A stretch of DNA of 64,000 bases, taken from NCBI GenBank assembly GCA_950295325.1, contig OX485808.1, forward strand, positions 25,936,527-26,000,526. The letters run 5' to 3'. This stretch comes from Polytrichum commune (taxonomy: Eukaryota > Streptophyta > Polytrichopsida > Polytrichales > Polytrichaceae). Position numbers and translations under genes: made by a program. Below the pieces are notes generated by a model. The model worked only from the letters and a program-made list of their open reading frames with translations. It did no database searches and had not been told where the DNA came from. Below, piece by piece: positions 336 to 61,280 of this stretch (positions are counted from its first letter, which is position 1; the number at the start of each line of letters is the position of its first letter).

Positions 336-2114
336 ATGGCTCCCAAGCAACAAAGGATAGATTTTGCATTTGTTCCCATTACAAAAGAGGAGAGGGCGGT
401 GGAGATTGAGAAGGAGTTTTTAAGTTTGGACCAGAGGTTAGAGGAGGAGCGCTCAAGACCAGTGGGGAGACCAAAGAAGACAGAGATGGTGTTGTTGAAG
501 CCAAAACTTGAGAAGATGAAGCGATCATGAAATGTTAGACGTTCCTACACAAACTAGTTTACTCCAGTTCTTTGGCCGCCTATTTTCAATGCAATGAAAC
601 AACATAGATGCATTGTAGGAGCTTTGAGTTTCTTGAGGGCAGCTTACATGAAACCAGGAGATCTCTCTAGTGTGTATGACAGTTTATCTAAGAATTCTAT
701 GAGAGATTGGTTCCATTCAAACGGAGAGCTGAAAGATACATACAAGAGATGTGTAGAATTTGGCACTTACTTTGCCAAATTTGTTCAACATTGTCCAGAG
801 TTAGAATCTTACCCTGTCTTGAAAGAAGAAATCTGCACAGTTTTGAAGACGATGAGGATGGCATGACAACCTCTTTATGTAGTTTGCATCCAGCCATTAA
901 TCAAAGCAATCATCCTCGACAAAACTCCACAGATTCTTGAAGGTACACATTCAACAACTTTTCATGTCTCTTATGAATGGACCAAGAATTTTGTCAAGTC
1001 TGAACTGAATTGGAGTTACCGAGCATCAACAACTGTAGCGGAAAAATTACCAAAAGACTTTGAAGAGCAGGGCAAAACAATGGCACAACGTTGTACATAT
1101 TTGGTGAAAATTCACAACATTCCTAAGGAATTAGTTGTCAACTCTGACCAAACAGGGATACATTTAGTACCTACAGGAGGATCTAGGACGTGGAAGACAA
1201 AAGGAGCCAAACATGTCAAGGTACATGGAGCAGAGGACAAGCGACAAATTACCGTTACAGTCTTTTCAACAGTAGATGGTCGTTGTTTGCCTTTCCAAGT
1301 AATTTTCCAAGGCACAACTACAAAATCTTTGCCTAAGTTAGAAGGAGGGAGAGAAGAGTGTGAATTATCAAGATGGAATATTTCCTACAGCTACAATCAC
1401 TGGTCTACATTAGAAACGTGCAAAATTTTTGTAGAGAGGATTATAAAACCTTACTTGGTTGCACAAATTGAGTTCAAGGCACTTCCAGCAGATCAAGAGA
1501 TGATCTGGCTCATAAACTATTGGAGTGTGCACATTAGCAAAGAATTTCGGGAATGGATGAAGATTCATCACCCCAAAATTCATGTGCTCTACATTCCTGC
1601 AAACTGTACAAGTGTGTTTCAACCAGCGGATGTTGTAATTCAAAGGCCCTTCAAGCATGCCTTTCGTCAAGAATTCAACCAATTCACTATGGATACTATA
1701 ACAAAGCAACTGAATGGAGGAACATATGTGCACATTGATTTTAAAATGTCCAAGCTAAAGCTTCACATTTGTCATTGGCTTTACAAGGCTTGGATTCATG
1801 TTTCAAGCAAAATTAATATGATTAGCAATGGATGGGAGCAGGCTGGACTTCTAAGAGCATTTGACAGTGAGTTTCAAAAACAAGCTATGATGGATAATAT
1901 GGTAAAACCATTGTTTAACAGCAAAGGAGAAGAAGGAGTGCAAGCTACAGATACAGAATGCAATGAAGAGATTGACGTCGAAGTGTCTTTAGACATTGTA
2001 ATGAAGAATAATTTGAGCAGAGTGGCAAAATTTTCCAAGACAATCAACTCAAATCGAATGACAACAATACGGGTGCTTGCAAGAAGAAGAAAAATTGACA
2101 AAGTTCTGATGTAA
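336..2114 (+). pseudogene. pogo/Tigger-like DDE transposase, inactivated
   Basis: One continuous + frame runs from ATG 336 (good start context, GCGATGG) to the TAA at 2112, about 590 codons, and is broken only by three in-frame stops: TGA at 528, TAG at 555 and TGA at 864. The part after 1080 is a DDE_1-type core of the pogo/Tigger/jerky group. The first acid is in NSDQTG (about 1140), and the third-acid region reads SVFQPADVV (about 1612-1640). The second catalytic position, expected as LxDxW, reads LINYWSVH, so the aspartate is replaced by asparagine. Upstream, a region around 594-860 resembles the N-terminal DNA-binding part. No frameshift is needed, which suggests recent decay by base substitution. 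Terminal inverted repeats were not located. Family identity is fairly sure; the exact clade is not. Confidence 0.82.
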
Positions 2115-2813
2115 GTTTTTCCCACTGAAGTTTTATTGCATTCAAATTAAGTGTTGCTTTAGTACATGTACTTACACATCATCTATCTTTCTATCTATCT
2201 ATCTACTTACACTCACAGACATGTCTACGTGCAAATTCAACTGCTGACTTGCAAGACACATCATAAGTACAAAAATAGTCAGCAACAAACAAATTCAACA
2301 TCTGCTTCAATTGTAATCTCGTTCAAGCTATCACCAGTTTTGTAATCACAAGCCGATTCAATGTCACTTACCTTAATTATTCTATCACTTGCTACAAGGT
2401 TGATCAAGCATGATCCTGGGTGTGAAACCAAGAATTTCCACATCCAAGTTTCCAACAGATTCCAAAACCGAATAATTTCTATAGATCCATAAACCCTTGG
2501 AGTTCAGGAGAATATTACCTTCAGCATCTCGACTCAAGCAACTGCTCCAACACCCCACGGCCCATGCATGGTCATGGTCACAGCCACAACATAGTTACGA
2601 CTTATGTTTCTGCTGGATCAATTCAGCTTGCTTAAACACTCACAGGAGCAACTCACAGGAGCAACTCACTCAACTAGTTTAGCAACTCACAGGAGAAACA
2701 ACACTCACAGGAGAAACTCATTCAACCAGATTCACAACGACTTTGACCTCTCCGGGGTGAACCTGTTTCGGAACCAGGTTGAATCTGCTTGTTTCATTCC
2801 CTAAAACCTCGAC
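2115..2813. other. Non-coding flank with short simple repeats
   Basis: I see no gene here. A TCTA microsatellite lies at about 2179-2204. A short tandem motif, CTCACAGGAG followed by CAA or AAA, occurs about four times between 2638 and 2727 with variable spacers. The stretch may contain the 3' end of the pogo-like element. Confidence 0.5.
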
Positions 2814-3235
2814 TCAAGAAAACCAAGCTCCCCGACTCAAAGATCCCGAGATGATCTCCTCGACCTTCTCCGACTGTGACTGCCTACTCCGAAACTGGAG
2901 CTGCGTCCCCTCAACCACCGGCGCCACCTTCTCTGTCCACCACCAACAACTGCTCCTCGACACCACCTCCTCGGCCTCCTCTGACTGTGAATCTGCAGGC
3001 TCCGAAACTGGAGTTGCGTCCTTCTCAATCACCGGTGCCACCTCTACCGGTGTAGCGAAATCCTCTTCCGAAGCAGGTGCCTCCTCCTCGACAGCATGTG
3101 CCTCCTCTACTGGAGCAGACACCTCCTTCTCCTCAATTGCAAGGCCTCCACCTCTTGAGCGGCTACCACCTCCTCAGCAACATGGGCCTCCTTCGATGGA
3201 GCAGCTGCCTCCTCGACGATCCAGGATGTGATAAA
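2814..3235 (-). pseudogene. Acidic Glu/Ala/Val/Pro-rich frame beyond the gypsy integrase
   Basis: Read on the - strand this GC-richer patch encodes low-complexity text rich in Glu, Ala, Val and Pro (for example VEEAHAVEEEAPASEED). It begins in one frame near 3230 and continues in another from about 3125, so there is at least one frameshift. A block of about 112 bases is repeated: the + words around 2869-2905 and 2981-3020 are near copies, the second copy being out of frame. It follows the integrase of the decayed gypsy element in the same orientation, so it may be a 3' accessory frame of that element. It could equally be an unrelated low-complexity gene fragment. The + strand 150-codon frame over it is Ser/Thr-rich shadow. 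Confidence 0.35.
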
Positions 3236-3600
3236 CGATCACTGGTAGGAAGAGGTCGTAGCAACTCCAATCTTATGCAGGCACCTGCTCGGCTGTGAGC
3301 AATGGAATTTGTGGACCCTAACTGATTTTCCAGCTCCTAAACCGTGATAATAGGATCTAATGCGCTTTACCAACCTGCGAAACTTGTAATGGCTTGCGAA
3401 CAGAGTCTGCTCACCCGACTTTCTGGATTTTCGTTCTTTTCTGAATATAATTTTCCATAATTTCGTTCTTCATGGCTTGGAATTTCTGATTTTTTTCATG
3501 TTTTTTTTTGGAATTATTTAAGAACGAACCTGCTATGGTGTTACGGTAGTGTTCTACATTGACCATATAAAGCATAAAATAGACTCATTCCTATACTATT
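3236..3600. other. Nothing recognised
   Basis: AT-rich stretch with T-runs near 3490-3510. If the gypsy element is complete, its 3' LTR should lie about here, but I see no match to the candidate LTR at 7.9-8.3 kb. Confidence 0.4.
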
Positions 3601-8300: not shown

Positions 8301-8712
8301 ATCTTCACTTTAATGATGAATAAGATATTCATATGAGCATAAAATTAATGAGGGTAGTGGACACTAGCACCATTTGGATTTGCTAGTCATCTTGCACTCA
8401 ATGTGTATTTCATAGCCTACGAGATGCCAAGAAGTGGGTGCAAAAGTTGGAAGTATCCATTTAAGGCGCTCTACCTTAAATCATCTCATATGCCCTCCCA
8501 ATTGTTCATAATGATCAAATTTGGACTGATTGAACACATACCTAATCGAATACATTCACAAACATACCTTCTTGGTGTCCATCCTTACCTACAAAACCTT
8601 GCCTATACTTAAGCACCACTAAAATGTAGATTTACTTAGGTGCAAGGTTTTATAAGCTCACTTATGTCACATGCGAGGCCTCTACTAGGCCTTACATTAT
8701 GTGATGTATTAG

Positions 8713-8748
8713 ATAACCGACGAGCCGCGGAAGCGGCGAGTAGGTTAT
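8713..8748. repeat. GC-rich hairpin
   Basis: ATAACC and GGTTAT enclose GCCGC-GGAA-GCGGC, giving a two-step stem with a four-base loop. It lies five bases before the inverted-repeat element that also begins ATAACC, so it may be part of the same structure. Confidence 0.5.
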
Positions 8749-8753
8749 CAGAC

Positions 8754-8922
8754 ATAACCGGTTGTCCACTTTTCAATCGCAACCCTTGATCTTCATGATC
8801 CAAGGGCATAGGATGCAAGTTGAAAGGTGAGAAGGTTATGAGTTGCAACTTGTGATGGCGATGGTGACGGGTTGCCAATGGGATGGAGCCACATTGGCGT
8901 TGAAAAGTCAACAACCGGTTAT
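8754..8922. mobile_element. Small inverted-repeat (MITE-like) element
   Basis: The ends are inverted copies: ATAACCGGTTGTCCACTTTT at the left and its near reverse complement ending at 8922, with about 23 paired bases and two mismatches. An inner stem CCCTTGATC / GATCCAAGGG lies near 8784-8807. The element is about 169 bases. GAC flanks both sides, but the exact target duplication is not certain. Confidence 0.6.
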
Positions 8923-9930
8923 GACATAGACCCTTCCACTTGTTGACGATGGTTGATTTTAGAGTGTAGATTTCATTTGAACAACATACCTAGTCCAATA
9001 TAGTCAAAACACATGTCTTCTTGTTTGTCCATTATTAACTACAAACCTTCCCATATAGGTACACGTAGGTTAGGTTTGAGATTTCAAAACCTAAGTTATG
9101 TCACATGTGAAGCCCACATTGTTTATTGTTACATTTGTTTTTCACTCACACAAATAGGACAAATTAGGGTAGCAATAAAATATAAGTTAGGTGTGAGGTT
9201 ACATAACGTCACTTATGTTACATGTCAAGCCCTCACTAATATATACCATTGTAAGTTCAACACTGTCAAGTGTGGACACTTATATTTGATTTGTGTGGTT
9301 AGGTGTGGATCCAATAATGGACACCAAGAGGACATTTGTTTAAGTGACATTGGATTACATGCTCAAAGTTTGTTAAGAATTATAGACTCAATAGCCAACA
9401 TAATTGGGAATATATCTGTAGGGATATATATGTGCATATATACGATCATCTAATATGAACAAGAATTGTCACTTTTGACAACGAATGAGATATTCATACG
9501 AGTTCAAAATATTATGAGGAAAATGACTACGGCCACAATTCAAATTTGCTAATCAATTGGCACTAATCATCATAGCTTACGAAAAGTGGGTGCAAAGCTA
9601 AAAGTGTCCATTTCAGACCCACTTATGTTAATAATGATTGAAAGATAGAATGGTCAAGATTCAATTTTAACACATACCTAGTCCAACATGTTCTCAATAC
9701 ATATCTTCTTGGTGTCCATTTTTTCATAACAATCCTTGCCATAGAATAAATACCATTCAGTTAAAGAAAATAAAGAAAAGAAAAACTATTGTAAAGCATT
9801 TCGTCGTGAATTTGAGCCCATTGGCCATGCCTTACTCAAGAACCCTCTTGGTGTAGGGTGGAGTTTACTACCTACCTTGCTGTAGGTGGGCTCTTATTTG
9901 TGAAGTTATGTTATTTTAGTATCAATTTAC

Positions 9931-11340: not shown

Positions 11341-13818
11341 TCGCTGCTACTGCGGTGACCAGGGCCTGCCGGGGTCCTCCTGGCTATGGCGTATGCCCTG
11401 CCGTGCACCCGGCTATGGCCATGGCCATCCACAAGCGCCAATAATAATAACCATCACCAAACGGAACGCTCGGTACGCCAAAACCTCCAAACCTTGCGCA
11501 CATCCTGCACCAGCACTGTCTCCACATTCATATTCGACGTACAATGCGATCAATCAATCTCAACAGCAGCTAGCTTAGGTTCACTAGTCGAACGGGGCAA
11601 GCAAAGGCAAGGGCACCTCTAAGGTTCGTAGCCTTCGCCGATTTTCATCGCTTTTAAGTATAACCTTATCAATTCATGATTTCCGCTAGTGGTTTATTTA
11701 ATATTTATTTAATTATTTTTTCAATTATTTTGGTCTGTTCCTCGAGGGAGGTCGGAAGTCGGGAGCTGGACTCTGTTGTCGGAATTGTGCAGTGGAGGTG
11801 TGAGAGGGGTTATTAGGTCCTTCTTTTCGGAAATTTTCTTGTTCAAGATGTGCTGATGACATTTTCTTTCTCGCGGTAAGGTATGTTATGTTGTTGAAGG
11901 TGCTTATAGCGTCTTCTTGTCATCTTGCTATCTCATTATCTCTTCTGTAGCAATGCTTTGAGATTCACGCGTCGGTCAGTATCGTGATGGAAATGTGGTA
12001 GAGGTTTGTAAAGCATTGGATATGACACGAATGAATTTCCAAGAAGATGCAGCGAAGCGACTTGGTGTAGGTGTAATAGTGCAGATAGAATAGTGTAGTG
12101 CCGCAGAGTGCTTTGTCTGTGTGAAAATTTTGCGATCGTCAGGCTCGAGGTTTTCTTGCTTATAACTAATGTTCATTGCACTGCGTATGTGAATTTCTAT
12201 CGAGTTTAGTATGTGGGGGATGGAATTTTCATTTGCAACGTACAAGAAGGTATAACGGGAGAAAGACTCTGAAACTGAATAATGTCGAAATCCAGCTGTC
12301 TTTAATTATCTTTTTGCAGGCATTTTGCCTTGACTTTTGTCATTTACACACCGGGATTATAGAAGATTAGGGAGGAAACTCCTTCCAGTTAGGATCGTCG
12401 GTAACAGACTCCGGTGAAGTAGATCGCACAGAAAGATGACATAAGGAAAGGCGCTGTGCTATTGCGAGGGTTAGTATAGTTAACATTAGTATGAATAGTT
12501 AGTACTCTTGTGCAAAGGGACAGCTGATTGGATTAGGTGGACACTTTAATGCTAGACCAAGGCATTGCTAACTCTCCCTCATCGTGTAGTTTTTGGTTCA
12601 ATGATGTGTTCACAATTGTGGGAACTTTTGGGTAACCGAGCTTGTTTTTCCTTAAACTTAATGAGTGCAGTCTAGAGAGGGGCCAACTCTTTAATGTTGT
12701 AAAGGATGAGTCTGAGTTCGATGCTTCGTCATCAGGGTTTCGATTTCCTTTTTTATTCTGATGAACAGTATAGGGTTTATTAGAGTTATGTGCCTGCATT
12801 TAATCAGCTCTGATATCCAATGCTAGACTAAGACATTGCTAACTCTTCCTGGCTCATTCTATAGTTTTTGTTTCAATGATGTGTTCTCAATTGTGAGAGC
12901 TTTTCAATATTTACACTTTCCTTAAAATTACGATTGCAGTCGGGAGAGGTGCCAGCTCTTGAATGTTCTAAAAGACGAGTTCTAGATTTGGATGCTTTAT
13001 CATCAGGGCTTCAATTTCTTTGTTTATTCTGTTGTTCAGTGTAGGATCAAATAGAATTATGTGCCTACATTTAATTAGCTTGACATGGTTGTAGTTATTT
13101 AATCCCCTCTATATATTTGCAACTAATTTAGATGATGTACAGAGATGGGGTTATTCATCAGGGAGACCTCGCATTACTGGGTCATGTTTTGAGCAGTTTC
13201 TGTTATAGTGGACATTTGATGTAATGTAGTGCTAATCATATTTGGTGTAGTATGGACATTTGTAAGCTGGAATGGATGGTTTTACACCTCCCTCTTATTG
13301 CTAAGGAGTCTATAAAAGTCCCCTAGAAAGTTTCTTAGAGTTTGTAAACTTTTTGTTGTTCAAATGGAAACAAGTAAACATTGTTCACTTGGTTGAAAGT
13401 GATTTGGTGGTAAATTTATCAATAAATTTTGTTAATAATCTCACTTCTTCAGTTATATTTTGTGGGATAGGCTTTGCCACACACAGCAGGTCATCGGTTG
13501 GTATATTCCTATGTGAAATCCTATAAGTGACGTGCTTGTGCCACTTGTCACTGAAATGGAAACAGCATCTGTAATTCACCATCAAATGTTTTAATCTAGT
13601 TTTGATGTAGCAGCCCAAGAAGATATTCTTGTCATTCAGAGTATCGAATTTTCTGATTGGTTGTGGATACTATGGAGCTTTGGGAGATGTCCTTCAAGTT
13701 TTTACATGCATATGGTGACTATGCATTTTCTATTGTGGATATGTGGTGCTTCTTGTATCATCTTATTGCGTATACTGATCTGCCACCATGTCAATCATCT
13801 CTGCAGAAAGAAGCTACA
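11341..13818 (+). promoter_or_regulatory. Probable promoter and untranslated leader of the WD40 gene
   Basis: A GC-richer, CpG-containing patch at about 11,330-11,640 contrasts with its AT-rich surroundings. It could hold the transcription start and a first non-coding exon, with AAG|GTTCGT near 11,622 a possible splice donor. CTCTGCAG at 13,799-13,806, 12 bases before the ATG, is a good acceptor for a leader intron. Short ATG frames in the patch could be upstream ORFs. All of this is inference; no transcript evidence is available. Confidence 0.35.
12548..13083. repeat. Tandem duplication, about 270 bases, two copies
   Basis: AATGCTAGAC starts both copies (12,548 and 12,819). Shared text continues through ATTGCTAACTCT, TTTCAATGATGTGTTC, CATCAGGG and TTATGTGCCT. 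The copies are roughly 80% alike by eye. They lie inside the putative leader intron of the WD40 gene. Confidence 0.85.
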
Positions 13819-27860: not shown

Positions 27861-29231
27861 CACGGGGAGGTCACTTAGTGCATTTTAAAAACGACGTGCG
27901 GCATAATATAGGGAGGATTAAAATCATTTGACATAAAAATTATAAAAGAATTCCAAATAATGAAGGGTCCATTAAAAGTACATAAGCCCATTACAAGTAA
28001 AATAGATAGGTATAAAATATGGGCCATTCCCTTTTAGTAAAAATAATATAGGGGCTGAAAATAAGGATCTTAGCATGTATGTTTAGTAGAATCAATTTTG
28101 TACGCATGCCTCACGAGGGATGGATGAAAAATTACTCATCATTCACCCAAAAATGGATGAAATTGGAAGCCTAACTCTATGCCCGACTTCTCTTGGTGGT
28201 TTTTCTCCCCTTCTCTTTTGAAACTCTTCAACCCGATTGTAGGGCGCCCGTTTGTGCACAACATTTGAGCCTCAACGTTGTGTTTAGGGTTTAGGATTGC
28301 TTGTCGTCATCCTCTTCTCCAATCTTGTGTAGAGTTTTTTAGCCAGGCTGCGTGTTCGGATGCGGAAACCTTGAAGAGCAGGTCTGAAACGATCCACATA
28401 GATTAGTGATCGTTGAGTGTCGTGGTTATTCTAATTGTTAGTCAGTTTTTGCTCCCGAGCTTTGCAGGAACTAAGCATAGTGCATGCAGAGAGTACCAAT
28501 ATCGCGTTGCTTGTTGTCCTCCTATTCTCCAATCTTGTGTCGATATTTTCACTAGGCTGAATTTTATGATGCGAAAGCTCGCTTGCCTCGCGGATAGCAA
28601 ATGGATTGATGTAGATTGCATTATATCTACGGTAACCATGAGCTATAATTCTACAAATGAGGTGTACACTCTTGATAGGAATGTTTCAGAGCAACTGTCC
28701 AAGTTTGTGACAGAACGAACTATATAAGATTCATGACCAAGCTTAAAGTGTTTCACACTATATGGTTTTGGTCTTCACTAGCATGTAAAGTGATTTTGAA
28801 TAAATGATTTTTATGGAGCGGGTGTTGTGTTTGTGAACACACACACAATCTTGTTGTGTTTGTAAACACACACTCAATCATGTTGTGTTCCATCCTAAGT
28901 CTTCTTTTTGTATTTTCACTTTAAGTTTTTGTACTTGGTTTTTGCAATGGTACGTAATTTTTATATTTTTTTGTTGACATGCTTTTCCCATCACTTTTGC
29001 ATTGCATACATTCTTAAACTTAGTTTTTTTATTAAAAGGAATATAAACTACAAAAAATTTCAATGACATGGGCATTATAAGTAATGGTAGGGTACAAAAA
29101 AATAGGCCATTTTAGAATATTATATAATTATAGGGAGCTTTTAATTCGTGCCTTGGAGGTAAATAGCCCCTAAACAAATACCCCTCCGCCGCACGTGGTA
29201 CACAAAAATCCTACTGAGTGACCTCCCCGTG
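27861..29231. mobile_element. hAT-like non-autonomous element with 8-base target duplication
   Basis: The ends are CACGGGGAGGTCACT at the left and its exact reverse complement at the right; inverted similarity extends about 43 bases to ACGTGCGGC. AATCGTGG flanks both sides exactly (27,853-27,860 and 29,232-29,239). An 8-base duplication with CA-GGG-like ends suits the hAT superfamily. There is no transposase frame. Inside, a block with CTCCAATCTTGTGT occurs twice (about 28,318 and 28,530), and a GTGTTTGTxAACACACAC motif is repeated near 28,825-28,875. The AT and CpG content of the core differs from the flanks, so captured sequence is possible. 1371 bases. Confidence 0.8.
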
Positions 29232-33992: not shown

Positions 33993-36900
33993 TCAGAAGG
34001 GCTGCATGTTTGTGCAATCCAAGTTTTGGCCGGGATCCACACCCAACTGCGAGCAGAAATCCTCGTAGTAGGTCACGCGGTTCGTTGCCGCCGTCGTCGC
34101 CGTTCCCGACCCGCACTCAATGCCACCGTTGATGATGTCGATCGTGACGCCGAATCCCGCGGCTCGGCCAGCGGCGGTGTCGGAGCTGCTTGGGGTCCAG
34201 TTGCCGATCATCACATCATGGCAGGAGGGCTTCGAGCCCGAGGCTGTAGTCCAGAACCAGAAGGCGGTTTTGAAGGAGAGCGTGGAGTCGGAGGCAACGA
34301 GGTCGGGATTGCTCAAGATGTCTTCGCCTACCGACCCGCTCGCGGCCCCATAGTTGTAATTCCTGTTTTCCAAGAGATCAAAATGAGTGTTTGTATGAAG
34401 AACACATTTGTGGGTTGTTACCCTTATATCATAAGGTAGGTAGATGGTCTTCAATGATCACTTTTTGGGACTAGCCCACTTCTCCGAGGCATGACATCAT
34501 TCAGCTGCTATCAGCCGTTCCATTACGATCAGTTCAGTACAGTGCTTTCACTCAGGTTTTTCAACCTGAACATGCCAATGTAGTGCTTTGCTATGAGAAA
34601 AACAAAGTGTAATTCCGAATAGAATCTGGCTTATTCCCGGCCAGATCCAACGTACAGACTCAGCAGAATAATGTTATGGAATATGAAAGACACAACTATG
34701 TAGTACGAGATGCTTAGCGAATCCAAATCAAGATTGAAGTTGCTTTCCTCCTAATTTTTGGAGCTTTGTATGACTATCTTATTCATTGTTACAGTGGGGA
34801 TTCTTGTGCTCATTATATACGGTCATATTGGTCCACCAAGCAAATTTTGTTGACTAATTTCCTGGCTTCGAATGGTTATAATATCTTTCAAACACGTCTT
34901 TTTGAAATGTGTTCATGGGAGCCACACCTAAACCCACACCACTCAAATATAGGTGTCCTCCTCCTTGGTAAGTGCTATGGAACATTGCTCCTAGAATTAG
35001 GGTATGGAAAATACCCAAAACCAACATCAGGTACCACATTCATCCACTACTGTTTAGTTGTGCCGGTGTCAAATTTTCATGTGTCAGGAAATACGATTTT
35101 GAGAGCGGATGCTAAAACACGTACCAGGAGATTTGCAGAGGTCCTCGCCCATAGTACTGCTTGCCTGCTGCGCATGGATATTGCGTATTTGTTGAATCGC
35201 AGTAATCCGACTTATTAATCTCCTCTACGTACTGAAGACCTGCATCAAGACACCCAATTTCAGCCGTACAAGTTAACATCAGACGCGAGAATAATTCTGT
35301 ATGTAGGTGAGCAGAAACTTATCAAATATTGCCAATTAGATGCACTTGATTGCCACTCAGATGCAATTGAGCAACACCGAATCAGCGTGACCAAATAGAG
35401 TCAGCAGAAAATATGTCAAAGTAGTTTGTAATTTGAACCTCACTCTTCAAAATTTCGAATATGGAATATGACTTACCTCCACTCTCTTGCATTACAGGAT
35501 CTCAGAAAGCAAATTTTGCATAGGAGTCGAGCTAATTAATTGCCAGTTAATAAATGGAGTTGAAAAACATTGTTTCATCAGCGCCAGATATTAATAGACA
35601 TTTCACCGGCAGAAATTAGGGTTACTATGAACCGCGTTTTGAATATGGCCGCCTACCTCCACTCTCGTGAATTCTGAGAGGACAAAAAGATAATTTCATG
35701 TAGAAAGAAAGCAGATTCATAAAAGTCTAATCACCAGATTCAAGGGCTAAGCTAGTCTGAACCACTTCTTTGACTATTATGGCCTACCTGCGGTCTCTTA
35801 CGTTAGATGAGCACACAAATATACTTTCATGTAGCAGAAATCAGATTCCGGAAAGCAGAAGCCAAGTAGTTGCCAATTGAATCGTCAATTTAATTGGCAT
35901 GAGCAATATTCTAATCTTAAAACAGGCGGTATTAAATCTCAAACCACTTTTCCAAACATTATGGCCTACCTCAAATCTCTTGTGTTCTGTGAGATTTTGC
36001 GTGAGAGTTGAAGCTAACTAATTGCCAGTTATTACACGGACTTGAATAAGATCCATTTATTGGCGTGAGCAATCTATAGAATCATAGTCGCAAGAGAAGC
36101 TTATTGTCATAATCTCAACCGCGCACTACTTCAAGTATGCTATCCTACCGACGATCTCTTGCATCGCATGAGTGCAGAAAGCCTTGCCTTCGCAGATTTT
36201 GGTTGTCATCTCGCTTTCAACAAAACTTGATTAATAAATATCTCGATAAATATTTGGAATCATCAACAGACAGGGTATATGTCATAATTTTCTCAATTAC
36301 ACGTTTCTTATAATATTGCACCTTACCTCCCGTCTCTTGCATCACATGAGGACAGGAAGCCGCAACTTCAAGGTTCTGGTTGTCAGAGATTTTGCGTAGG
36401 AATTGAAGCCAACAAATGTCAAGTTATTAATAATTGCACTTGAGAACAAGCACAATTCTTTGGCACAATATGGCGTTTTGCGTTATGTGAGCGCAGAAAG
36501 CTAATTCCGCGTAGGAGTCGAAGATAACTACTTCCAGCTGTAAAACAAATGCAATTGACCAACCTTCGTTCATTGGCATGAGCAACCAATAGAATCATCG
36601 CCAAAAGAAAAGGTTATCATAATAATCTCTACCACGAAGTTAGACTTCGAAAACTACAAGTTGCCTCCGGTCTCTTACGTCACGCGAGCGCAGAATCATG
36701 CTGCGACCTCACGCTTCTGGCTGGCGGAGATATTGTGTAGCAGTCCAAGCTATAATGAGTTATCAAATGCTTGAGAACACCCTTGATTCATTGGCATGAG
36801 AAATCACAGCAAGAAATCATTAACAGAAGAAAGGTTCATAATTCTGATTATCATCTCAACCGCCGCAAAGTTCTTGGAGGATTATAATGACCTACCTCCG

Positions 36901-37325
36901 GTCTCTTGCTTCACGTGAGCGCAGAAAGCCGCGACCTCGCGCTTCTGGTCATCGGAGGAGCCCGAAGTTCCGAACGACGAGTAGGCGGCTGCGGCGGCCG
37001 TGAAGGCGTCGTACGTGTAGAACGACGCGTCTCGGTTTGGGAAGAAAGTGTCGAACATGGAGCTCGACAATATGCTCCCGACTCCGCTAGTCGAGCCACC
37101 CGATGGCGGCGATGGGCTTGATCCCGTGCACGGTCCACTCTGGCAACCCGTCCCGCAATACGCATCTCCACTACCACAGTACCCGTATTGGCTACAACAC
37201 AAATTGTTCGCACAAACCGCACCCCCAGCCTGACTCCCGCAAGTTTGCGCAATCGCCACCGAAAGTTGCAGCAGAAATACGGCACAGCAGCAAGCCAGAA
37301 GCACCACCACCCTCGATTTCCCCAT
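33993..37325 (-). CDS. Hevein-domain GH19 (class IV-type) chitinase, middle exon not found
   Basis: Exon 1 (37,325-36,896) encodes a signal peptide (residues 1-26, ending VAIA|QTCG), a hevein/CBM18 chitin-binding domain with eight cysteines (about 27-68), a Ser/Pro/Gly linker and the start of the GH19 domain up to [10 protein letters not shown]. The glutamate in QETG matches the first catalytic acid. It ends in phase 1 at GGAG|GTAGGT. The last exon (34,362-33,993) starts after AAAACAG in phase 2 with NYNYGAA and carries [26 protein letters not shown] and [10 protein letters not shown]. The piece between, normally about 45-50 residues with the second catalytic acid and the YxGRGP motif, is not visible. 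Direct joining of the two exons shifts frame. TTTTCAG|GATGGG before the start suggests a leader intron. The family degrades chitin outside the cell, in defence. The gene may be broken, or its missing exon may be too diverged for me to see. Confidence 0.8.
34363..35290. other. 3' part of chitinase intron
   Basis: No GH19 middle exon is seen on the - strand. A + strand frame of 150 codons (34,766-35,218) has no recognisable family and lies opposite to the gene. Confidence 0.4.
35291..36960 (-). repeat. Tandem array of chitinase exon-1 end plus splice donor
   Basis: The + strand word CCTACCTCCGGTCTCTTGC (the exon 1 end and its 5' splice site, read backwards) recurs in decayed form at about 36,891 (the real one), 36,659, 36,473 (weak), 36,321, 36,141, 35,961, 35,781, 35,651 and 35,471, with a faint further copy near 35,300. 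Spacings are mostly about 180, with outliers from 130 to 230. Each unit continues with GAGCGCAGAAAGC (exon text), 'gattttgcgtaggagttgaagctaac', 'ttgccagttat' and 'cattggcatgagcaat' in varying states. The unit next to exon 1 keeps about 56 bases of exon homology, but with two stops. Confidence 0.85.
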
Positions 37326-40859: not shown

Positions 40860-42010
40860 ATGAGCAAGCTACAAAGGTTGCGGTTTACGGTTTCGAACTT
40901 CCACGATTTTGTACCCTGCTTTATGGTTAGGAACTTATATATTGCCACGACTCTTGCTGACAAGTTTGGCTCTCTGGTGCAAAGAGCGTGGAAGGAAGCA
41001 CATATTTGGTTGTTTGTGGCCCATTAAGGTAAGGTAGCTTAGCTAGAGGTAAGTTCACCTATCATTATCATCCTTTTAGGCATTTGAGCACACTTTACTC
41101 TTCCTAGCTAGTATCGAAGGTAATTAAAAGAGGATTCTAACACGTCCTACCTTGTACGTTTTGGACATCATACAAGTACACCATGAATTCAAACTTGTCC
41201 GTGCACAAAGATTGTGGGTTATGGCAATGCTTTACAATACACAAGTTATCACATGTTGTTATCAAGTTGCCCACTTTAGCTATCCAATGTAAAGACTGCG
41301 GAAACATAGTACATTTCAGTTGTCCACGGCCCATTATGGTAAGGTAGGGTAAGACCACCTATAATTATCATCCTTTTAATCACCTATCAAGCACATTAAT
41401 TAGTACTATTATTAAGTCCTACCTTGCTCATTGTTGAGACTTGTTGGTGATTAAAATTTTCATCTTAAGTGTGGTGGGGTAATTACACCTATCATTAGAT
41501 TTGTCCTTTTAAGCATCTATGGGCACTTGGTATTAGTACTACACTGATGTACAATGCAAAAGAATGTGAAAACACAATACATTAAGTTGTCCATGGCCCA
41601 TTATATATGGTAAGGTAGGGTAAGTACACTTATAATTATCATCCCTTTAAGCACCTATCAAGCACAATAATTAGAACTAATACTAAGTTCTACCTTGATT
41701 ATTGTTGGGATTTGTTGGTGATTAAACATCTCATCTTAGGTTGTAGTTTTGAGGTATCGTATGAATAGACTATGAATGCCACCTTGTCCATGTGCAAAGA
41801 TTGCGGACTATGGTTTCATACTTCTATAATGCTTTACAGTAAAAATGTCATGTTTAAGTTGTTATCAAGTTGCCAACTTTAGCTTTCTAATGCAAGGAGT
41901 TCTGGAACCACATATTCGGTTGATTGCGGCCCATTAAGGTATGGTGGGGTAATTACACCTATCATTAGATTTGTCATTTTAAGCATCTATGCGGGCTCAG
42001 TATTAATACT
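40860..42010. repeat. Interleaved tandem repeats, about 0.3-0.6 kb units
   Basis: Three blocks share 'tgcaaagattg/cgg', 'ctttacaxtaxxcaag', 'gttatcaagttgcc', 'xxtttgcggcccattaaggtaaggta' and 'cctatcattatcatccttttaagcacctat' (starting about 40,860, 41,145 and 41,745). A second pair with 'acacctatcattagatttgtc' lies at about 41,490 and 41,955. AGGTAAGG words occur repeatedly. No conserved coding frame. Confidence 0.6.
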
Positions 42011-45000
42011 ACACTAATTTAATCAATATGTATGTATTTGATTTTCGTCCACCACCTTCATATTATGTTTTTGTCATGGTTTTGACCTATTTATGGATGA
42101 AACTTTGAATTTTTATTTCAATTTTTCATATGGCAGCGTTCAAAGTAAGGTAAAGTGGACCAAGATGTGGCTCCGCCACTCAATTTCTAAATTCTTCATT
42201 CAAGCGCATGAAGTTGATAACTAGGATTTAAGTGAATATGGGCTAAAGACTTGTCCAAATTAGTAATGCATCTAAGAGTAATTATTTGGACAATTGAGAC
42301 ATGCACATTGCACAACAAAGTTTATGAAGGAAGAAACTAGAAGAACGTGATGAAAATATCAATTACACATACTTTGAGAAGCAATATGATCCAACATTCC
42401 CTCTAAATGCGTATTTTTCCACAAGTGACACAGTGTACATGCAACTACAACGTGCTACAACAAGAGACGAAATCCACATCTACAAACAGTTGTTGTCATT
42501 CTATCATAGGGTCCACCGATAGAAGTGCACTATAAAATTATAGTTTGCTCAAAACTCATGATTAAGTGTACATTTACTTATTTGATGCAAGTTTAATCAT
42601 TACTTCAAAAAAAATCTTTCAATTACTTCCTCATGAATATAATACCATCTTTTGAAGGAAAAAAATACTATATAATACATATGGAGAGTAGATTTGAAAT
42701 GCAACTAATATACTGGTTGTACTTTTCATTAAAAAACAATCTTCAAATGTAAATAACTGATATTATCAAATTCTATGATTATATTGAGGATTATTCCAGT
42801 ACAACAAACGAGATTGGGCTTGCAACAAAAAAACGCGAACTGCACAGACGTGAGCAAAGTTGCACTCTTGTGTTGTAAACAAAAATAAAATAAAATTGTG
42901 TTGCACTTTCAATCCACTTTACACTGAATTTTCCAAATGTTCATCTCATTTGCATTACTTTTCAGTCACAGGAATATTTTATGTGTGTACTTTTTCTCTT
43001 TATTGAAGAATAATATTTCAAATTTCTGTTGGTCATTATGAGATTCAACATCTTCCACGATTGATGAGAAAGAAAAAAAGATTGACCGCAAATGTTATCT
43101 TCATGCATTTCTTGGCCAATTTCCATTTAAACATGAAAAGGGTCAAGACCGGTTCACTTTACCTTGCTATGGACACGATTCAGATTTTTTGTGATCATCT
43201 TGCACTCAACGTGTGCTTCATATCCCATGGAAAGCAAGTGCAAAGGGAAAAGTGTCCAAATAACACGTGTCTACCGCAGGCCGGTGAGTCTCTCTGTAGA
43301 TCGAGTCTTTCCATGAGAAGGCGAGTCCGACTTTCGTTACAAGTCGATTAGATTAGAATATACCTTGAAGCCACGATCATCATATCCATTGTTGCACAAA
43401 AGTCTTCGCCTCTCGGGTCGAGGCGGCCAAGAAGTTCACACCAAGGTCGCGTCAATATTAATGGAAGGATGATGGAATCAACGAGTACTTGCATGGAATT
43501 GACTATGAAAATCGTGCATGAAAACGGGACCAAAATGGCCTTACCTATAATGTAGTATGTACCTCATATAGTGGAAAGTGGTATTTTGGACACGAACTTC
43601 ACATCCCATTATTAATTAAGTTGCATGGTTGTGTTCCATTCTATGTTTAGTATCTAGCATGGGCCTCCACTATCTTATTTTCATGGGAAGAGACTTGGAA
43701 ATAGGAAGAAACTGACGTCAATATGAGTAATGAATAGTGTTAGTTTAATTAGAAAGAACATTCCTGAATAGTGTTGGTATGAATAGTAATTTTAGGAATA
43801 ATGTTGGAATGAATGGTGTTTCCTACGAATATTTTTTCGGATGAATAGTAATTCCTACGCATAGTGTTGGGAGTATAACTCCACCCAAGTTTCCAAGTTT
43901 AGCCTGAATGTATGAATGGTAAAAGAAGATCCATGGTTTGTTCGAGGGGCCCACAAAATATAATTGACATATTCCAAGGTCATGTCACCGACCCACATGG
44001 CTAAATAATGCCAAGCATGAATGGGAGTCCCTTCTTCCTTATATTGATCATGTTTTACCAAGCTTCAAGTCAAAGTTACTTTCATTTAATGCACATTTCT
44101 TGACCATACCATCATCAAAAGCTCTCCATGACGCAATTGGCATGTGTGGATGGATAGCATCTCACCAATGATTGTAGAGAGCCCGGCAATGTAATTACAA
44201 GTAGTCAATCTAAATGGAAAAACACAGATCCAATTTTTAAAGTGGTCATTTTTTTTTAGTAAATTTTTGGTATTTCTTATAATACACAACCGCTTGTTTC
44301 AGAAACAATTTAAATAATTTAAATAAAATAAATAAGAACTGATTTTCTTTGTCCAAGACCCAGGATCTAATCTGAATTGGTTGTCTTCAATAATCCATGT
44401 TTTCTTGCACCTCATTTGGGATGTTGACAATGGAAGGGGCTCAAGAAGCACGAGTAGAAGATAACCCTAAAGGTGTTTAAACACCAACACGTCAAAATGA
44501 AACGTCTAAATTCATTTGTCATCAATAAGTCAAAGACATTGCCTCTTAAGATAGGTGGACCCACACCCTGACATCATATTTCTTCTTCTTCTTCCAATTA
44601 CGTCACTTCTCCTAGATGATAGTAAACATGCGATTCATGCAATACAATAAAAGTCCTGATTTCGAGGTTGTAGCCATTTTCCTCATGACTTGTGGATCTT
44701 GTATGAATATTTCATTCATTACCAAACTGAAGATTCTCTTTCTTTTTAAATGGCGATAAAGACAGAAGTTGACCATCTTGCGCATCCGGTGATTGAGATC
44801 AAGAGCTTTCCATTATGGGATTTGTGTGCGTGGGTGACACCTCAGTGGTGATGTAAGTTAGACAATGGAGGATTAATCAAGACGAAGGTATTATTACGCC
44901 TAAGGTAAACAATTCTAAGTTGGTTGTTTATCTTAATTGAACACCTATATTTGAGTGGTCATAACATTTATGGCCAAGGATTTGTGGCACTCACGTAAAA

Positions 45001-46693
45001 TCATCCGGATAAGCTCATTCATATCATTGGATGAGATCAACCCCTTTAGAATGACACTTGTGGTGTTGGCTCCTTGTCTTGAGGTGACCGAAAATACTTA
45101 AAGGGTGTCTAAAACCATCCCAACCTAATTTAAAGGGTGTTAGTAAATACAAAGTTTAGTTCATCTAAAAATGAGTTTCTAGTGTAGAGCAAGTAGGTGC
45201 ACCATGTGTTGGCAACCCATCACTATTAGTCGGGATATTTCTAAGAACAAGTGGGTGTATCATGGGTTGCCAACCCATGACTACTCGTGTGGTTATTTTA
45301 AAGAAATTAGCATGCCATTTTATTGAGCCATTTAAATCTCTTTGCCCTCCCACCCTCTCATCTTTGTGTGAACGGTTCTTCTCTCCCCTCTTCATTATTT
45401 CTCCTACACTCTCACCTTTGTCATATTCTCTCTCACATCACTCACCTTGCATTACTTTTTACAAGGTATTGTTTAGTGTCTCTTAGCAATTGCAAAGTTG
45501 AAGTTTAGGGAGTAATTGATTTTTTTTGAAATTTTGCAACTTGCACTTGTTTTTGTGAAATCAATTTTTTGTGAATGAAGTGTTGTGCATTTACTTAGAC
45601 TATATGCTTCTTGTAGTAGACTTTGGGAGTACAAGTGTGGAATTCAAATGGAAGTTCTCAACTTATAACCAGTTGGACTTGGAAACACTACAATCAAGAG
45701 TGATTATGCCCAAAAATCTTACCGGACACTATCAATCATGTCTTGGAGCAAAGCTAAGGTAGATGGGTTCATTAACGATTGATTGCATCTACTGATATTG
45801 TCTACCACTAGATTCAGTTCTCATCTATTCAAAGATTAATTTCCGTTCCAAAGTCGCGAGTACCATAGCCAACTCCAGGTGTGTGACTTTGGAGCTAACC
45901 CTTTTGCAGGGTTAGGCTGATGGGTTGTTTGTGTGTCTTTTAACTTTTTGTTTCCACCAGCGCGTGAATGTGTCACCTGCATTAGGTTGATCGTCATAAG
46001 GTGACAACATGTTTGTGATAATTATGAGCTCAATATCATACAACTAGGGTTTTGGAGGCTTAGGCTAATGGTTTGTTGTGTGTGTGTGTTTGAGTTCTTT
46101 GATTCCATCTTTACCGGCGTATCAATCTTTGAATTGAATTGGGTGGAGATTTGTAAACTGACAGCAGATTTGTGACAGCCAGGAGTCTGAACTCATACAT
46201 CAGGGTTTTTCAGGTTTAGGCTTATGAAATGAATGTTTTCTTTTGGGACTATCATGAGCTTGAAATCGTGTCGCAGCGAATCTCTTCGGGGTTGGGATGA
46301 TGATTTTTTCTTCTTTGCTTATTTCACTTGATCAAATATTTAGGCTACGGTGGATTTTAATATATATTCTAGTTGAACAACTAAAGAACTCCAGTGTTTT
46401 TTTAAATGTTTTTTTAAAACTTCAACTTGTTATTTCTCAAACTTAACCGGTTTTTTATATATAACGGTTAATTTATCCCATTCATTGACTAGATGTTATT
46501 TTTTTGGAATTTTTGTGCAGAATTATCGCATTTATTCCAATTATTCTCTCTCTGGTAACCACAAAAATTTGAATGGCTCTTAACATTGAACCGATTCCCC
46601 CAACAATAGTGAACGTTGTCCTTTCGACTGTATCATTGCAACAACGGTGCAAGGTCATTCGCAAGCTAATGATTTAATCATCTTTGCTACTCT
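42011..46693. other. Mostly unrecognised AT-rich sequence
   Basis: A single copy of the 8.3-9.7 kb repeat lies at about 43,160-43,265 ('gatcatcttgcactcaacgtg'). Repeated 'tgaatagtgttgg/taatt' words lie at 43,730-43,870. A 59-base unit occurs twice in tandem at 45,189-45,306 and contains GGTTGCCAACCC. A perfect palindrome GGTGTTTAAACACC lies near 44,473-44,486. No supported gene. Confidence 0.45.
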
Positions 46694-47879: not shown

Positions 47880-48570
47880 GGATACATGGATAAAATATAA
47901 TACACAATAATCATACGGTTGAAATTTTAAAATAGGCTATAATCAGATTCTATTGATTTTTTTTCATGTTGTCTTAAAAATGCAAAACAACGATGCCTTA
48001 TACATAATTATTATCATTTTATATTTTCCAGAATAAACATATGAATAAGATATCTTACAAAATAATCACATGGTTGAAGATTTAAAATAAGTTATGTCAA
48101 ATTCTATTTATTATTGTTTTCATATTATCTTTTAAATACAAAACAACGATACATTATCAATAATTATTATCATTTTACCATTTTGAAGATAAGTATAAAG
48201 ATAAGGAATCGTACATAATAATCATACGATTGAAGTATCTTATATAAATTATATTCAGATTACTTTATTATTTTGAATATACCTTATCGTTTTCATTTTC
48301 ATATTATCTTTAAAATGCAAAACAATGATACCTTATGAATAATTATCATCATTTTACAATTTTAAGAATAAGCACATAGATAAGGTATCGTACATAATAA
48401 TCATACGGTTGGGATTTTTTTTATTAGGCTATAATTAGGTTCTATTAATTTTTTTAATATACCTTATCATTTTTATTCTCATATTATATTTTTAATACAA
48501 AGAAAATATATGTCATCCATAATAGTCATCATTTTACACTTCCGAAGATAAACCTAGAAATAAGAACATC
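47880..48570. repeat. AT-rich tandem satellite, about four units
   Basis: Units of about 155-180 bases contain AAAACAACGATACCTTAT (near 47,984, 48,138 and 48,315, weaker near 48,490), 'ataattatcatcattttac' and 'gataaggtatcgtacataataatcatacggttg'. CGATACCTTATC and GATAAGGTATCG are reverse complements of each other and both occur in each unit. The same word appears outside the array at 46,771 and 49,711. Confidence 0.75.
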
Positions 48571-48789
48571 GTACAGAAAAATAATACAAAACGTCACTGA
48601 ACTAACAAAATAAATTTCTAATACAAATATTCATTATATATGATAGTCGAATTGTTCACCTATAATAATATATATGATAAAAATTATAAATTATAAAAAT
48701 TATTTCATATCTAACAATTATATCTGTAGTCATTTTCACGGCGAATTACATTAACCAGGTTTTTTTGAAAATATTATTCCATTCTACCC

Positions 48790-55171: not shown

Positions 55172-55380
55172 GGGATATTGCCCGTGCCGCCAATATCCTA
55201 GAGTGAAAAAATGGAAATGAGGTTAAGTAGATCTTGGGATATTGACAATGCTACCAGTATCCAAGAGAGGAAAAAAAAAAATGGGATTAGGTAGGTATTG
55301 GGTATTGGTTGTGCTACCAATACCCAAGAGTGGAAAAATATAAATGAGGTTCGATAGGTTTGGGGGTATTGGCGATATTT
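55172..55380. repeat. 64-base tandem repeat, about 3.3 copies
   Basis: Units start GGGATATTG at about 55,172 and 55,236, then GGGTATTG at 55,300 and 55,364. Each carries GTGCTACCAATATCC, AGAGTGGAAAAA and GAGGTTAGGTAGG in varied form. Confidence 0.8.
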
Positions 55381-60686: not shown

Positions 60687-61142
60687 AGGACCTTGGAATG
60701 TGACTGTATAACCCCCTGGCTGCGACTGCCTCAGCTTCGAAATGATCAGCGAACCCTGGACTGGGACTGTATAATCCCCTGCTGCGACAGCCTCAACTTC
60801 GAAATGACCAGCAAAGCCCTGGACTGGGACTGTATAACCCCCTGTTGCGACTGCCTCAACTTCGAAATGACCAGCAAAGCCCTGGACTGGGACTGTATAA
60901 CCCCATGGCTGCGACTGCCTCAGCTTCGAAATGACCAGCGAACCTTGGATTGGGACTGTATAACCCCCTGGCTGCGACTGCCTCAGCTTCGAAATGGCCA
61001 GCAAAGCCCTGGGCCCTGGAACTGCATAACCCCCTGGCTGCGACTGCCTCAGCTTCGAAATAACTAGCAAGGCCCTGGAAATGGGATTGTATAACCCCAT
61101 GGGGCTGCGACTGCCTCAGCTTCGAAATAACCAGTAAGGCTC
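60687..61142. repeat. 63-base minisatellite, seven copies
   Basis: The unit reads GGACTGGGACTGTATAACCC, then the segment CCTGGCTGCGACTGCCTCAG, then CTTCGAAATGACCAGCAAAG and CCCT. Copies run from 59 to about 71 bases, most being 62 or 63. Because 63 is a multiple of three, frames stay open through several units on both strands, which explains the 124- and 139-codon frames here. Confidence 0.92.
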
Positions 61143-61280
61143 TGGAGCTGAACTCAACCTAACATTCTCAACTATCTACATAATCCTACCCAACTCACCA
61201 TCTAATTACTTCTAAACAACTCACTAATTATACTAACACCTACCTAATTCACACATTCTCTAAGAGCTCCCAAAGTCCTA

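Follow-up and report, generated by a model that had tools for sequence, protein, structure and literature searches.

Zhuo et al. reportedly described, in 2007, human introns that arose from tandem arrays with repeated splice signals; it is the tandem array with its repeated splice signals that would liken those introns to the locus considered here. In the potato RdRp gene, a tandem genomic duplication lies over an exon-intron boundary and the splice signals were inherited (PMC4974935). The likeness to the present case is that of a plant gene with a boundary-crossing tandem duplication that passes on splice signals. The potato event, however, is one acceptor-side duplication that gave a new intron with RNA-seq support, whereas here eight donor-side copies lie inside an old intron and are known from sequence alone. 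Duplication of an exon piece bearing AGGT is also a recognised route to intron gain, as a review (PMC3443670) and a Drosophila study (PMC2891723) set out, citing Gao and Lynch 2009 and Hellsten 2011 on such gain. Tandem copies carrying AG/GT (the slash marks the splice point) are common to that route and to our locus but the outcome differs, as the chitinase described below acquired no new intron; its old intron was enlarged and its donor multiplied.

A sequence-only reading of this locus stated that no named system resembles it. This has to be narrowed, since boundary-crossing tandem duplication is described in the sources above (PMC4974935, PMC3443670). The multi-copy donor ladder itself was not found described in the literature searched, which covers few subscription papers.

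The chitinase gene and its first intron

The window (the whole stretch of Polytrichum commune DNA that was analysed, 64,000 nt) carries on its minus strand, at 37325-33993, an intact three-exon chitinase gene with an N-terminal chitin-binding domain followed by a GH19 domain. Exon 1 (36896..37325) has a hydrophobic N-terminus, a signal peptide as judged by eye, encodes the chitin-binding domain and the start of the GH19 domain, and ends ...HVKQETG/G in phase 1. It is followed on the same strand by intron 1 (35240..36895; 1656 nt, GTAGGT...GATGCAG), exon 2 (35125..35239), intron 2 (35124-34363) and exon 3 with the stop codon (33993..34362). When joined, the three exons give an open reading frame of 304 aa. 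Chitin_bind_1 (PF00187) scores 49.5 bits against a cut-off of 27.8, and for Glyco_hydro_19 (PF00182; cut-off 25.5) the open frame of exon 1 scores 42.8 bits, that of exon 2 38.2 and that of exon 3 165.8.

The genome (408 Mb in 64 contigs) was searched for members of the family with a tool that scores its best candidates only, and the 22 exon matches obtained correspond to eight GH19 loci, namely the studied gene and seven others (L012-L018, all seven of which were read and compared). Relative to the nearest of these, L012, dN/dS is 0.22 for exon 1 (dS 0.96), 0.19 for exon 2 (dS 1.25) and 0.04 for exon 3 (dS 2.3, saturated). The chitinase exons are under purifying selection and their reading frame is intact. 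Exons 2 and 3 lie behind the donor ladder, and from the selection acting on them we infer that full-length splicing from the first donor is still frequent enough.

Nine units, each centred on a donor, make up the array in intron 1: one has the true donor (U0) and the other eight are decayed copies (U1-U8). Every unit comprises an exon 1 end, a 5' splice site and the first stretch of intron. When the gene region (4.2 kb) was compared with itself by BLAST, it returned 13 direct-repeat pairs (E 4e-4 to 1e-19, 64-79% identity), all of them inside the end of exon 1 and intron 1. None of three controls made by first-order Markov resampling of the whole window contained a local repeat pair at E <= 1e-6. 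About nine decayed exon-end and donor copies had been counted through the intron in the sequence-only reading, and self-comparison and alignment confirm nine homologous units. Tandem Repeats Finder did not detect the intron 1 array, as expected given that the copies are so diverged.

The homology begins within the real exon 1 at about 36957, ~62 nt before the exon end, and the source of the repeated exon piece is the last 62 nt of exon 1 (36896..36957, minus strand). The first unit (36665..36895; all units are on the minus strand) contains the true donor, GAG/GTAGGT, and its intron part, then the exon-tail copy that leads to U1. In the second (36468..36664) the donor of U1 has decayed to GAG/GCAACT, and in the third (36327..36467) the donor of U2 is lost and ~100 nt are missing after it. 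The fourth (36149..36326) carries the U3 donor GAG/GTAAGG, stronger than the true donor; the fifth (35970..36148) has the weak U4 donor TCG/GTAGGA. Strong donors are present in the sixth (35788..35969; U5, GAG/GTAGGC), seventh (35657..35787; U6, CAG/GTAGGC) and eighth (35477..35656; U7, GAG/GTAGGC) units. Copy U8 (35309..35476) has the best donor of the intron, GAG/GTAAGT, and after it, at 35463-35309, an incomplete tenth intron part (nhmmer E 0.001, where the model was built from the array's own units); the U8 intron part was aligned at fixed length, with some letters dropped.

The first intron bases of U0 to U8 are at 36895 (real), 36664, 36467, 36326, 36148, 35969, 35787, 35656 and 35476, giving spacings of 231, 197, 141, 178, 179, 182, 131 and 180 nt. 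A spacing of mostly about 180 nt had been proposed; four of the eight intervals are of 178-182 nt. As the units adjoin almost without gaps between them, an overlooked copy with a lost donor is unlikely.

Strength and conservation of the copied donors

Donor strength was scored with a plant donor weight matrix and background that are approximations and not derived from the Polytrichum genome. Based on this matrix, U0 and five copies take the top six places among the 86 GTs of the intron: U8 (11.2), U3 (10.1), U6 (9.6), U0 (9.55), and U5 and U7 (8.7 each). Three copies outscore the true donor, U6 only barely (9.64 vs 9.55). The best GT outside the copies scores 7.8, and U4 scores 5.0 (rank 13). 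Two of the eight copies have no GT, as U1 reads GC and the site in U2 is gone, probably by deletion. Pairing energies with the 5' end of U1 RNA, using a 5' end present in both of the U1 loci read of the 42 listed, agree with the matrix: here the seven best of the 86 GTs are U0 and six copies. A separate observation is that the 42 U1 RNA genes over the cut-off in the genome include several close together on C5 and C6.

Equally strong donors occur elsewhere in the window at 0.36 per kb and strand (44 in 121 kb-strands), a rate at which 1.65 kb would contain 0.6. Apart from true donors, a single strong one is present in the first introns of the seven paralogues (in L017). Intron 1 contains several donors of predicted usable strength, as would an alternative 5' splice-site cluster. 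The sequence-only reading had noted stronger AGGTAAG donors at 36,321 and 35,471; these are U3 and U8 (first intron bases 36326 and 35476), and both outscore the true donor. Its proposal of a ladder of competing donors after a GH19 exon is likewise in agreement with the predicted strengths and with the U1 RNA pairing.

The same reading placed the donor box among the best-kept parts of the unit. Averaged over all pairs of the nine rows, AGGTA has an identity of 0.86, as compared with 0.687 in the nine-column box, 0.674 in the exon tail (-32..-4) and 0.53 in the intron part. The AGGTA core is the second best kept of 183 five-column windows and the nine-column box only the 15th of 179, in a unit alignment that has U2 as a gap from position +1 onward and so favours the donor side; the tree, branch-length and control-array tests use this same alignment. 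Based on an ungapped comparison with U2 placed 2 nt off, AGGTA is third (tied) of 85 windows, with 0.778 vs 0.833 at -11. The donor box is better kept than the intron part but not clearly above the exon tail.

Under a uniform-rate model fitted outside the tail and box, all three regions are too conserved (core P about 1e-4, tail 5e-5, box 0.007-0.01); when the model is fitted to all columns, P is 0.0016 for the core, 0.0017 for the tail and 0.04 for the box. Cells kept relative to U0, counted with the U2 box placed ungapped, number 52/72 for the nine-column box and 167/224 for the exon tail. The core, counted over all copies, shows no significant excess over the tail (34/40 vs 167/224 cells, P 0.23). 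Five strong donors survive among the eight copies, as against 1.2-2.2 expected under a star model of neutral decay with exon-tail divergence (P 0.004-0.03, depending on ancestor and rate). With U2 set aside as a deletion, a choice made only after the data were seen, the six functional donor positions are kept in 39/42 cells compared with 145/195 for the exon tail (P 0.008); with U2 included there is no excess (40/48 vs 167/224, P 0.26), the counts of 39/42 and 40/48 having been made by hand from the alignment. The neighbouring upstream window AAGAG, five purine-rich bases, is kept even better than the core (37/40 cells). In the real exon this window codes for part of the QET motif, which offers another explanation for its conservation. 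Three control arrays from the same genome contain no equally extreme window, with 4-5 units each and less power. Taken as a whole, these comparisons give a weak hint that donors may have been retained beyond neutral decay.

On a fixed tree, the internal branch length is 0.08 for the exon tail and 0.66 for the intron columns, and 149 of 150 simulations gave a higher internal fraction than that of the tail. There is no clear shortening of the branches that lead to the individual copies (exon 2.03 vs intron 2.52, P 0.12). Such a concentration of exon-tail conservation on internal branches fits a constrained real exon end that served as a recurring source, with copies then decaying freely. It suggests that the exon tail owes most of its conservation to copies having arisen from the constrained real exon, or having exchanged sequence with it. 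Identity to U0 declines with distance for both the exon part (rho -0.74, one-sided P 0.02) and the intron part (rho -0.69, P 0.03), a pattern consistent with growth at the exon side. The donor box behaves the other way round, its identity to U0 increasing with distance (rho +0.82).

We also considered the donor box as a uniquely conserved element. This was rejected, as conservation is no lower in the exon tail and internal branches carry part of the signal.

Origin of the array and rival readings

We consider neutral tandem expansion, begun at the exon-intron boundary and leaving potential decoy donors, to be the most economical reading, and give it a probability of about two in three. Intron 1 would have expanded, probably from a few hundred bases, to its 1656 nt via repeated local tandem duplication. 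The first duplicated segment would have spanned the boundary between exon 1 and intron 1, and by straddling it would have supplied every unit with some exon 1 sequence, the 5' splice site and the intron start; 24-62 nt of exon 1 and roughly 80-170 nt of intron start remain per unit. Further units would have been added later by unequal exchange or slippage with the real exon end, and decay would have followed everywhere except at that end. The starting length and the mode of growth are what we infer from the array as it now stands, as is the view that the extra donors are mostly passive leftovers; any of them, if used, would close the reading frame four residues beyond the junction.

Local tandem duplications, mostly decayed, are common in this genome. 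Within the window, local direct repeats occur at nine places including the intron 1 array and cover 5239 of the 64,000 bases (E <= 1e-6). The other eight places, with 63-89% identity, are 8487-9743, 12548-13086, 28297-28576, 40958-42021, 45902-46226, 47903-48722, 55173-55376 and 60687-61146. Tandem repeats were also found in four of six other 10-kb pieces of the genome, which were picked by round coordinates and not at random (3826 of 60,000 bases, E <= 1e-7). Among the stretches holding the seven paralogues, five (L012, L013, L015, L016 and L017) have local repeats and L014 and L018 have none (E <= 1e-3). In the sister genes L012 and L013, the end of exon 3 and the 3' UTR have been tandemly copied just downstream with 68-69% identity (2476-2629 and 2705-2850 in L012; 2766-2919 and 3007-3152 in L013), a second exon-end duplication in the chitinase family. 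Junk expansion, one of the options raised by the sequence-only reading, fits the intron 1 array best given how common such duplications are; its other options, a source of splice variants or a brake on splicing, are hypothetical roles.

Three further structures were seen in these surveys. The reverse complement of L017 (about 1146-3255) has an intron 1 array of its own, in which five units of about 240-335 nt were found that do not include the exon end. At 1628-1923, intron 1 of L013 holds a ~290 nt inverted-repeat insertion, absent from the near-identical L012, which is bounded by TTTGCAAAG on both sides and resembles a small DNA transposon whose insertion duplicated 9 nt of target. At 60690-61134 in the window, a 63-nt unit is repeated seven times and is open in two frames (139 aa on the minus strand, 124 aa on the plus strand), and may or may not be coding.

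Simple budding from U0 does not account for every feature of the array. One upstream piece of the exon copy is missing from U2, U6, U7 and U8 alike, and from U5 more is missing, whereas U0, U1 and U3 keep the piece. Budding from U0 without exchange between units leaves the shared loss unexplained, which counts against neutral expansion in its plainest form; exchange between units is likely, with no simple order of duplication. Supports in the unit tree range from 41 to 87. When copies were matched to exon ends at two columns, six of eight and five of eight were of the window type as opposed to the L012 type, and two columns are too few for the array to be dated from this comparison. No array of the exon 1 end was seen in the seven GH19 paralogues that the best-candidate search yielded. 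A DNA search of the genome for dispersed copies returned only the locus itself and two exon matches, with a tool that skips common words and may miss diverged remote copies.

Gain of intron 1 was also considered as an origin. It was rejected on the position of the intron, which interrupts about the same codon in all seven of the paralogues read.

Selection may instead have kept the copies of the 5' splice site, with their exon tails, while the remainder of each unit drifted by tens of percent, such that the choice between a productive first donor and non-productive later ones sets chitinase output. We regard this ladder under selection as unlikely. Another reading, to which we give slightly less credence and which we find doubtful, is that the copies act as poison donors, kept by selection because their occasional use leads to a premature stop that lowers or tunes chitinase output. 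Readthrough past the true donor meets a TAA after residue 147 (...QETGGRSL, then stop) for all eight of the later donors, before most of the GH19 domain; a transcript spliced from any copy would therefore be non-productive. Splicing from U8, the highest-scoring donor, to the acceptor at 35240 would give a 237-nt intron. Five copies with scores of 8.7-11.2 around the 9.55 of the true donor, where chance predicts 0.6, together with the excess of surviving strong donors and the well-kept purine-rich AAGAG, speak for poison donors. However, of the eight copy donors three are weak or gone, conservation of the core does not significantly exceed that of the exon tail once all copies are counted, and the QET motif offers another explanation for AAGAG.

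The copies could also be putative U1 snRNP sites that are not spliced but shield a long intron from premature cleavage and polyadenylation. This protection by U1 (telescripting) is reported for introns in Arabidopsis (PMC11489095), and putative intronic U1 sites in the chitinase could act likewise. The top ranks held by U0 and six copies in U1 RNA pairing agree with such a role, as do four polyadenylation-signal-like hexamers within intron 1, but hexamers of this kind are common in AT-rich DNA. In addition, first introns of 905-2555 nt occur in four paralogues, none of which has more than one strong extra donor there, so such sites are not general to the long first introns of the family, and we consider this protective role very unlikely.

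Decayed alternative or tandem coding exons, in place of intron expansion, are improbable in the extreme and largely refuted: the copies do hold 24-62 nt of coding sequence, but they lie in varied frames relative to exon 1, U1 has in-frame stops, the unit takes in the intron start, and only some copies have an acceptor-like CAG upstream. We give hardly any weight to ratchet-type (recursive) splicing, in which the copies would serve as paired acceptors and donors for stepwise removal, since intron 1 is far shorter than the introns known to need such splicing and, by eye in the alignment, copies other than U7 (good acceptor tttttgtcctctcag) and U5 (weaker, aatctcacag), each 17 nt before its donor, lack the combination of tract and AG there. 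For Arabidopsis, recursive splicing has been put forward to account for a one-nucleotide exon (PMC4674806).

As an observation in its own right, the exon tail of U7 at 35657-35673 of the window has become a good acceptor (tttttgtcctctcag) and makes a 17-nt exon possible, with a weaker version in U5.

Implications for donor choice

From copy to copy one donor recurs, each time within an exon context of its own and at a distance that is known, and all copies share a single intron and acceptor. The array thereby forms a natural test series for how a plant spliceosome chooses among nearly equal donors and for how long an idle donor survives. If the extra donors are used, local duplication would be a simple brake on a gene that leaves the protein untouched. 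If they are silent, strong donors near an acceptor can be ignored by splicing.
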